Source: an uncultured Alphaproteobacteria bacterium
GTDB taxonomy: Bacteria; Pseudomonadota; Alphaproteobacteria; Caulobacterales; Hyphomonadaceae
Length of the DNA: 33,186 nt
Assembly (NCBI GenBank): GCA_903842595.1
Contig: CAIMMO010000069.1
Location: 1 to 33,186, forward strand
Reading direction: 5' to 3'
This document shows positions 1,313 to 30,661 of the stretch, piece after piece (position 1 is the stretch's first letter; each line of letters opens with the position of its first letter). The position numbers were made by a program, and so were the translations under genes. The notes beneath the pieces are model-generated. The model had not been told where the DNA came from and did no database searches. It saw nothing but the letters and a program-made list of their open reading frames with translations.

Positions 1313-1320
1313 GGCACAAA

Positions 1321-1350
1321 GAAAAAGGGCGGCGCGATTAACGCGCCGCC
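1321..1350 (-). terminator. Intrinsic terminator of the hisG-distal RNA candidate / his operon
   Basis: A perfect 9-bp stem, GGCGGCGCG/CGCGCCGCC (1350-1342 with 1336-1328), has a 5-base loop. On the minus strand it is followed by CCTTTTTCTTTG. It is the first convincing terminator downstream of hisS-hisZ-hisG. Confidence 0.8.
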
Positions 1351-1550
1351 ACTAGAAGGGTCTGATACGAGCGTTTCCTCCCCGAAACGCCAAACCGCCG
1401 AAGCAGTTCGTAGTGAAGATCTCCTAGACGTAACGGTGAGTCAAGAACCATCTTACATCCCCGTTATCGTTCCTTGGAATTTAATGGCCGTGTTACGCTG
1501 CGAACAGACCCAGGTTGGGGTCGAAAACCACGCGCCACCCTTCGCAGACG
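1321..1550 (-). ncRNA. Candidate structured RNA of ~230 nt, minus strand, downstream of hisG (unknown family)
   Basis: Four consecutive helical units lie almost end to end. (1) CTGCGAA/TTCGCAG (1547-1541 with 1504-1498), enclosing GACCC/GGGTC (1522-1518 with 1511-1507). (2) CGTAAC/GTTACG (1497-1492 with 1434-1429), enclosing CAAGGAAC/GTTCTTG with one bulged G (1476-1469 with 1448-1442). (3) CTAGGAG/CTTCTAG (1427-1421 with 1358-1352), closing a junction with two hairpins: AACTGC-TTCG-GCGGTT (1408-1393) and GCGTTTC-GGGGAG-GAAACGC (1390-1371). (4) A 9-bp terminator stem followed by a T-rich tail. The c(UUCG)g tetraloop and G-U pairs in two helices exist only on the minus strand. The RNA starts about 50 nt after the hisG stop, so it could be processed from the his mRNA or have its own weak promoter. 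It lacks the conserved sequences of tmRNA, RNase P RNA and SRP RNA. The fold is visible; function and transcription are unknown. Confidence 0.6.
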
Positions 1551-29291: not shown

Positions 29292-30596
29292 ATGCAGAAC
29301 AAGGTGAAACCCAACGGCAAGGCGAGCATCACCGCCAACGGGAAGACCGTCGAATTGCCTGTCTACAGCGGTTCGATCGGCCCCGACGTCATCGACATCG
29401 GCAAGTTCCACGCCCAGACCGGTATGTTCACGCTCGACCCGGGATTCACGTCGACGGCGAGCTGCGAGAGCCAGATTACCTATATCGACGGCGAGGCCGG
29501 CATCCTGCTCCACCGCGGCTACCCGATCGACCAGCTGGCCGAAAAATCCACCTTCCTCGAAGTCTGCTACCTGCTGCTCCACGGTGAACTGCCGAACGCC
29601 ACCGAGGGCGCCGACTTTGTCCGCACCATCACGCGGCACACCATGCTGCACGCCCAGTTCGATCGCTTCTTCGACGGCTTCCGCCGCGACGCGCACCCGA
29701 TGGCGATCATGTGCGGGGCAGTCGGCGCTCTGTCCGCCTTCTATCACGACTCTACTAACGTCGATGACCCGGTCCAGCGTCAGGTCGCCCAGCATCGCAT
29801 GATCGCGAAGATGCCGACCATTGCAGCCCGCGCGTTCAAGTACTCCTCGGGCCAGCCCTTCGTAAGCCCGCGCAACGAGTACGACTACGCATCGAACTTC
29901 CTGCGCATGTGCTTCGCCGTTCCGGCCGAGGACTATGTGATCAACCCGGTTCTCGCCCGCGCGATGGATCGCATCTTCATCCTCCACGCCGACCACGAGC
30001 AGAACGCGTCGACCTCGACCGTCCGCCTCGCCGGCTCGTCGGGAGCCAACCCGTTCGCATGCATCGCAGCCGGAATCGCCTGTCTCTGGGGTCCGGCGCA
30101 TGGCGGCGCCAATGAAGCCGCCCTTCAGATGCTGCAGGAGATCGGCACGGTCGACAATGTGAGGAAGCACGTCGACAAGGTAAAGAACAAGGTCGATGGC
30201 GTCCGCCTGATGGGCTTCGGCCACCGCGTCTACAAGAACTACGACCCGCGCGCGACGGTGATGCAGAAGACCTGCCGCGAAGTGTTGAAGGAAGTTGGCA
30301 TCAATGACCCGCTTCTGGAAGTCGCGATGGAACTGGAGAGGATCGCGCTCTCGGACGAGTACTTCATCGAGAAGAAGTTGTACCCGAACGTGGATTTCTA
30401 TTCGGGCATCACACTCAAGGCGATGGGCTTCCCCGTGTCGATGTTCACCGTGCTGTTCGCCCTCGCGCGCACCGTTGGCTGGATCGCCCAGTGGGAAGAG
30501 ATGACCACCGACAGCACCCAGCGCATCGGCCGTCCCCGCCAGATCTACACGGGCGCACCGCGCCGCGACTACGTGCCTATCGACGCCCGGACGTAG
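29292..30596 (+). CDS. gltA: Citrate synthase
   Basis: GltA condenses acetyl-CoA and oxaloacetate to citrate, the entry to the TCA cycle. The 434-residue protein is of the longer Gram-negative (E. coli-like) type, with an N-terminal beta domain starting near [16 protein letters not shown]. The catalytic residues are present: H270 in [11 protein letters not shown]311 in [14 protein letters not shown] and D368 in [15 protein letters not shown] lies a few bases before the ATG. A strong terminator follows 25 bases after the stop. Confidence 0.97.
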
Positions 30597-30621
30597 AATT
30601 GCCGAGACGCCCCAAGACAAA

Positions 30622-30652
30622 GGGCCGCCCGCAAGGGCGGCCCATTTTCTTT
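30622..30652 (+). terminator. Intrinsic terminator between gltA and lpxB, usable on both strands
   Basis: A perfect 9-bp stem, GGGCCGCCC (30622-30630) with GGGCGGCCC (30635-30643), has a GCAA tetraloop. It is followed by ATTTTCTTT on the plus strand and by TTTGTCTT on the minus strand. It lies between convergent gltA and lpxB and probably ends both transcripts. Confidence 0.9.
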
Positions 30653-30661
30653 GGTGTGGTA

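Follow-up and report, generated by a model that had tools for sequence, protein, structure and literature searches.

A probable CrfA counterpart encoded 3' of hisG in a Hyphomonadaceae genome and its predicted capture of alphaR8 small RNAs

What is encoded between groEL and hisG in this genome of an uncultured member of the Hyphomonadaceae? The window, that is, the whole stretch of 33,186 nt that was analysed, has at its left end the 3' part of groEL on the plus strand (up to 759) and hisS, a hisZ-like gene and hisG (end at 1602) on the minus strand. A small RNA (sRNA) gene lies within the groEL-hisG gap, and its conserved unit reads on the minus strand from 1410 to about 1319 (Table 1). An initial annotation had placed here a structured RNA of about 230 nt and left it unassigned. 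Our analysis identifies the RNA as a counterpart of CrfA, a known sRNA, with a score below the Rfam threshold. The annotation had presented the RNA as new unless it matched a known family, so this claim of novelty largely lapses. We give a probability of roughly 85% to the reading that the window sRNA is the Hyphomonadaceae orthologue of crfA, with its own promoter 3' of hisG and an intrinsic terminator, and that it is most likely an RNA sponge.

Table 1 Features of the sRNA locus in window coordinates
Feature	Position	Strand	Basis
CrfA-type small RNA, ~90 nt	1319..1410	-	blastn matches, alignment, fold z; both ends inferred
-35 element TTGACT	1439..1444	-	15/15 sequences compared (14 of the genus and G023)
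-10-like hexamer GATCTT (weak)	1416..1421	-	17 nt after the -35; nAnnnT in 15/15
Conserved upstream block GATAACG..TGTAAGAT..TTGACT, candidate regulator site	1439..1468	-	majority consensus
5' hairpin, UUCG tetraloop	1391..1410	-	fold and pair counts
Sponge hairpin GCGTTTC-GGGGAG-GAAACGC	1371..1390	-	exact-core matches; 20-base identity to the CrfA model consensus
18-nt alphaR8-complementary stretch (loop, right arm, 5 nt beyond)	1366..1383	-	contiguous Watson-Crick and G-U pairing
Linker	1351..1370	-	mostly unpaired in predicted folds
Intrinsic terminator, 9-bp stem and T-tract	1322..1350	-	terminator scan, folds

The real unit is much shorter than first described. Positions 1410-1321 (90 nt, minus strand) fold into three hairpins at -41.1 kcal/mol (z -3.35), a stability equalled by 2 of 500 dinucleotide shuffles. 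The 140 nt upstream (1550-1411) gave a z of 0.17, with 269 of 500 shuffles equally stable. A single 230-nt RNA was rejected because the promoter lies in these 140 nt, which show no structure above the chance level, and three of the six end-to-end helices in the initial annotation are supported. Its CTAGGAG/CTTCTAG junction joins promoter DNA (1421-1427) to the RNA linker (1352-1358); as half of it lies in promoter DNA, the transcript predicted here could not form it. The c(UUCG)g hairpin and the terminal hairpin with its T-tract were both recovered on the minus strand. The terminator scan returned two terminators, compared with 1.3 on average in shuffles.

Folding energy alone gives no choice of strand (1310-1560, z -3.29 for minus and -3.46 for plus). 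The minus strand, as annotated, is favoured by the T-tract, the -35 element and the sequence changes in the UUCG stem, where, over ten aligned rows, U-G became U-A (1) or C-G (2), and G-C became G-U (2), which pairs on the minus strand only. This stem was counted over ten g1/g10 rows because in two g6 rows the 5' hairpin is shifted and has another loop. Paired changes such as U-G to U-A or C-G, or C-G to U-A, are seen in places in the terminator as well as in the UUCG stem. The core hairpin is nearly invariant, with G-U substitutions in other families. The terminator register of the alignment misfits the g1 rows L014 and L015 at four or five pairs; each of the two folds into its own strong terminator.

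A blastn query with 1310-1560 matched 19 of 61 genomes, the window's own included, and thus 18 of the 60 others, two of them over just 24-32 bases. Besides the own genome, only its nearest relative, G001, gave a near-full match. The matches in G005, G006, G010 and G011 extend to window 1457-1471, and the remaining 13 start no earlier than 1413 in the RNA direction; among those 13 genomes, five show 98-99% identity over about 96 bases. Alignment with relatives, as the initial annotation had proposed, revealed one border after a conserved CTTGACT and a second at the T-tract. In G001 the sRNA stands at the ends of two contigs (L002 and L020) that share the same bases, so its two blastn matches look like one locus split by assembly.

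An Rfam search of the window returned nothing at gathering score, and a search for tRNA and tmRNA found none. The sub-threshold matches in a short search were ncS025 (21 bits), ncS54 (19), CrfA (17.3), suhB (14.5) and two weaker ones. In the source genome, CrfA (RF01527) scores 17.3 bits (E 1.7) against a cut-off of 38, and the RNA is filed accordingly as an orthologous variant outside RF01527 as Rfam draws that family. CrfA is singled out by the 20 identical bases through GCGUUUCGGGGAGGAAACGC and not by its score. Three traits of RF01527 are found here as well: a G/A-rich second stem-loop complementary to alphaR8 (identical core, 18 contiguous pairs), the position of Caulobacter crfA, which has hisG upstream of it both at L143, from a Caulobacter vibrioides MAG, and in G093 (CrfA score 160 bits), and a Rho-independent terminator, here a predicted one. 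Membership in alphaR8 (RF00519) failed, as the sRNA bears the complement of the single-stranded UUUCCUCCCU core and scores 14.5 bits against 41. Membership in ncS025 (RF02869), the top sub-threshold match, also failed, with 21 bits against a gathering score of 46.

The source genome contains an Hfq gene and one alphaR8 above the cut-off (G000:C162:1182-1259, 68 bits). This alphaR8 overlaps a convergent FGase gene at the latter's 3' end, a genomic setting that PMC12559287 describes for the alphaR8 family. Its stretch UAUGGGCGUUUCCUCCCU forms 18 contiguous pairs with the window sRNA when G-U is allowed, 12 of them in a row without wobble; the former length was reached in 0 of 1000 shuffles and the latter in 1 of another 1000. 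The longest-helix test over 23 genomes was strong in most. Three f3 genomes were weak, with 3, 3 and 7 of 100 shuffles as long, and 36 to 57 of 100 without wobble. Cofolding of the two RNAs gains about 10.8 kcal/mol over the separate folds. RNAduplex energy, which leaves structure out of account, was discarded as proof of pairing because it is unspecific: equally good values came from 5 of 1000 shuffles and from 122 of 2208 window slices. The longest contiguous helix was used in its place.

Two observations concern alphaR8 itself. A weak match in the window (30568-30658) was rejected, as it lacks a CCTCC core and probably represents a terminator alone. In f4, the alphaR8 candidates of G043 (L328, L337) and G099 (L325, L334) lie below 30 bits and are mostly without the usual TTTCCTCCCT core, and the CrfA-type core is present.

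In C. crescentus, Vogt et al. 2025 (PMC12559287) show that the alphaR8 sRNAs SisA-D are captured by CrfA via this hairpin, with Hfq, and that CrfA increases when carbon is withdrawn. By analogy, we infer sponge action, Hfq dependence and starvation induction for the window sRNA. Transcription would start at a dedicated promoter immediately 3' of hisG and stop at the intrinsic terminator. The toehold would be the GGGGAG loop, to which an alphaR8 sRNA (SisA/MmgR-type) would bind with its CCUCCC core. As the alphaR8 stretch GGCGUUUC has the sequence of the sponge left arm and the preceding base, it could displace that arm by strand exchange, with a duplex of up to 18 bp, in a putative toehold route of capture. 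With its anti-Shine-Dalgarno core masked in this way, alphaR8 would release its mRNA targets, probably when carbon is short and together with Hfq.

Is the right arm of the hairpin constrained by its partner arm or by alphaR8? We compared the right-arm residues of 50 genomes that hold both RNAs with the hairpin partner, in a fixed register, and with the best alphaR8 of the same genome. Pairing with alphaR8 was found for 349/350 residues and pairing within the hairpin for 301/350; most of the former count is built in by the entry rules, by which the alphaR8 copy holds TTTCCTCCC and the CrfA copy a GGGAGGA loop motif. The 26 exact-core genomes do not discriminate (182/182 within the hairpin, 181/182 with alphaR8). 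We therefore rely on the last three residues of the right arm, preselected on neither side, in 16 minimal forms 3' of hisG. All 48 of these residues pair with the alphaR8 of their own genome, compared with 13/48 within the hairpin in fixed register, or 25/48 if the 27-nt segments take their own best fold. The asymmetry rests mainly on these 16 genomes, which belong to six related genera and are not independent. The recount narrowed the support from the test and left its direction unchanged. The minimal forms thus retain the alphaR8-complementary arm while the hairpin partner arm drifts.

The T-run filter kept 50 of 51 genomes and left G010 outside the pairing set; its alphaR8 core is intact. 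G015, which has no alphaR8 match above 17.3 bits, was also left out. This genome, without a clear alphaR8, carries a copy 3' of hisG (L292) with a degenerate right arm, GAAGCAA. Co-changes in the two RNAs are rare, as the core of alphaR8 hardly varies. The sole clear case is a change in G028 (GAAACGTT), which fits its unusual alphaR8 (AACGTTTCC); its sister G019 shows one mismatch with alphaR8. Both are single cases.

Could mRNAs be the main partners of a crfA orthologue here, with alphaR8 pairing secondary? CrfA was originally read as an mRNA activator, as told in PMC12559287, the G/A-rich loop can meet C/U-rich mRNA sites, and conservation within the genus extends to the linker and the 5' hairpin. 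The same paper, however, traces the mRNA effects of CrfA in C. crescentus to alphaR8, and the minimal forms consist of little beyond the sponge hairpin and terminator, with the alphaR8-complementary arm retained as its hairpin partner drifts. We regard mRNAs as improbable main partners.

The exact 19-base core (of the hairpin's 20 bases) occurs in 27 of 101 genomes, namely 17 of 37 Hyphomonadaceae (G000-G036) and ten of f2, which is Caulobacteraceae by named records matching some of its genomes. A reversed control pattern had zero matches in the same 101 genomes. The Rfam CrfA cut-off is passed by ten of them, all f2, with the exact core at the same places. Both searches were dropped as measures of distribution because they overlooked diverged copies. 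In all 17 exact-core Hyphomonadaceae genomes the core adjoins hisG, and a diverged copy was found 3' of hisG in 17/17 further ones with a near-full hisG match, so that 34 of the 37 carry a copy. Of the remaining three, G012 and G020 are without a hisG match and G034 has a 43-residue match. For another 24 Hyphomonadaceae genomes (G061-G084), coverage was limited to the pattern and model searches. In six genera (g2-g5, g8 and g9) the copy is a minimal form, apparently about 60-70 nt long, with promoter, one hairpin and terminator; copies in g3 and in part of g5 show no plain T-run, and their 3' ends are uncertain.

Among named genomes, the exact core occurs at no fewer than 117 loci. The genera named among the loci listed are Caulobacter, Phenylobacterium, Brevundimonas, Asticcacaulis, Hyphomonas, Hirschia, Terricaulis and Maricaulis, and the other records listed name just a family, order, Alphaproteobacteria, Proteobacteria or bacterium. 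Same-strand hisG (63) or hisS (39) lies upstream in 102 of the 117 loci listed, at 98-475 nt, with the end of the tblastn match as reference point. Among the other 15, 12 have less than 400 nt of upstream DNA; L142, L145 and L213 have more than 2.5 kb and no his match. Variant cores occur in f3 and f4, beside hisS or hisG at L091, L099, L102 and L274, and without a his match within 1.5 kb at eight loci. In 16 further regions examined, his genes were found at L264, L265 and L274 only; L275 and L276 hold an f3/f4 core without his genes, and L266-L273 were rejected as CrfA copies. Among the pattern and model matches inspected in f5, there was no convincing CrfA copy; alphaR8 was found in the ten f5 genomes.

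CrfA and alphaR8 have complementary cores, and pattern searches can therefore confuse them. Matches to GTGTCTCGGGGAGGAAACGC in g3 (L261-L263) were rejected as CrfA, as these loci look like the reverse strand of alphaR8 paralogues, extra alphaR8-like loci whose reverse strand resembles the CrfA core. Further copies in g3 are located 3' of hisG.

On balance, we lean towards the CrfA-alphaR8 pair being an ancestral circuit of much of the Caulobacterales (as defined in GTDB), as a rule fixed at a site 3' of his genes. One hairpin and a terminator would make up the minimal form, the left arm would copy alphaR8 so that capture combines toehold and strand exchange, and selection would keep the alphaR8-complementary arm even at the hairpin's cost.

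The TTGACT element stands 54-55 nt before the core in the 15 sequences compared, each followed after 17 nt by an nAnnnT hexamer; row L109 of the upstream listing, at a contig end, is mis-anchored. A strict sigma-70 scan returned zero promoters, which makes the -10 weak. The initial annotation had offered a stable regulatory RNA, either independent or cut from the his operon 3' end. A regulatory RNA on the minus strand is very likely, and the constant spacing of the -35 (15/15) favours the independent option, as judged from sequence. A terminator structure belonging to the his operon, or a 3' end processed from its transcript, with no function in trans, would fit the shared strand, the position 3' of hisG, the strong terminator and the empty promoter scan. 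Against it stand the conserved -35 at fixed spacing, an invariant loop that is dispensable for termination, and cores at loci without an adjacent his gene, and we hold it to be very unlikely. Chance structure in GC-rich intergenic DNA, which would suit the upstream 140 nt that fold no better than shuffles, is refuted by a 19-base core identical across families of the order, an empty reversed control and the z of the 90-nt unit.

Two blocks upstream of the promoter recur in many members of the genus and are possible regulator sites: GATAACG..TGTAAGAT, and, further upstream at about 1541-1556, TGTTGCG.NTGCGAA. A second conserved intergenic element, a candidate sRNA, lies on the plus strand between groEL and the sRNA (1029-1175). 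It consists of a GAAGTTC...GAACTTC stem, a GCCC..GGGC hairpin around ATCCTGACCC and then a terminator. It was found in 9/20 relatives, which are 9/12 of the same genus, and 4 of its 33 predicted pairs are changed on both sides. Its comparison with Rfam gave none over the cut-off, with only weak matches to NsiR9 (17.8 bits against 90) and Guanidine-II (15.1 bits against 32).

The sponge role of CrfA was published in 2025 for one species (PMC12559287), in a paper whose main text has no mention of hisG, Brevundimonas, Phenylobacterium or Hyphomonadaceae. CrfA and Brevundimonas are each mentioned once in PMC3751524. Among the titles returned by a literature search, in a field where most subscription papers were beyond reach, none describes CrfA outside Caulobacter. 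The present evidence extends the CrfA-type RNA to Hyphomonadaceae and relatives, and the his synteny rule recovers copies overlooked by Rfam's model. The natural mutation series separates hairpin constraint from pairing constraint, and the conserved block upstream of the promoter is a place where a starvation regulator might bind.

Compared with known systems, the window sRNA shares with CrfA (RF01527) a core hairpin with identical loop and arms, an intrinsic terminator, a TTGAC -35, the position 3' of his genes and the complementarity to alphaR8. It differs in length, with about 90 nt against 136 model positions, and has a short UUCG 5' hairpin whereas CrfA has a longer 5' domain; the ATCCCC terminator-loop motif of Caulobacteraceae CrfA copies is missing. 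The Burkholderia family ncS025 has a similar hairpin layout. The alphaR8 family (MmgR, SisA-D, RF00519 suhB) is partner and not kin: its GGCGUUUCCUCCCU pairs with the window sRNA, its core is the complementary one, and in the source genome it has its own locus beside FGase. QrrX and other RNA sponges of sRNAs share the proposed mode, in which an sRNA captures sibling sRNAs (PMC12559287), in different hosts.
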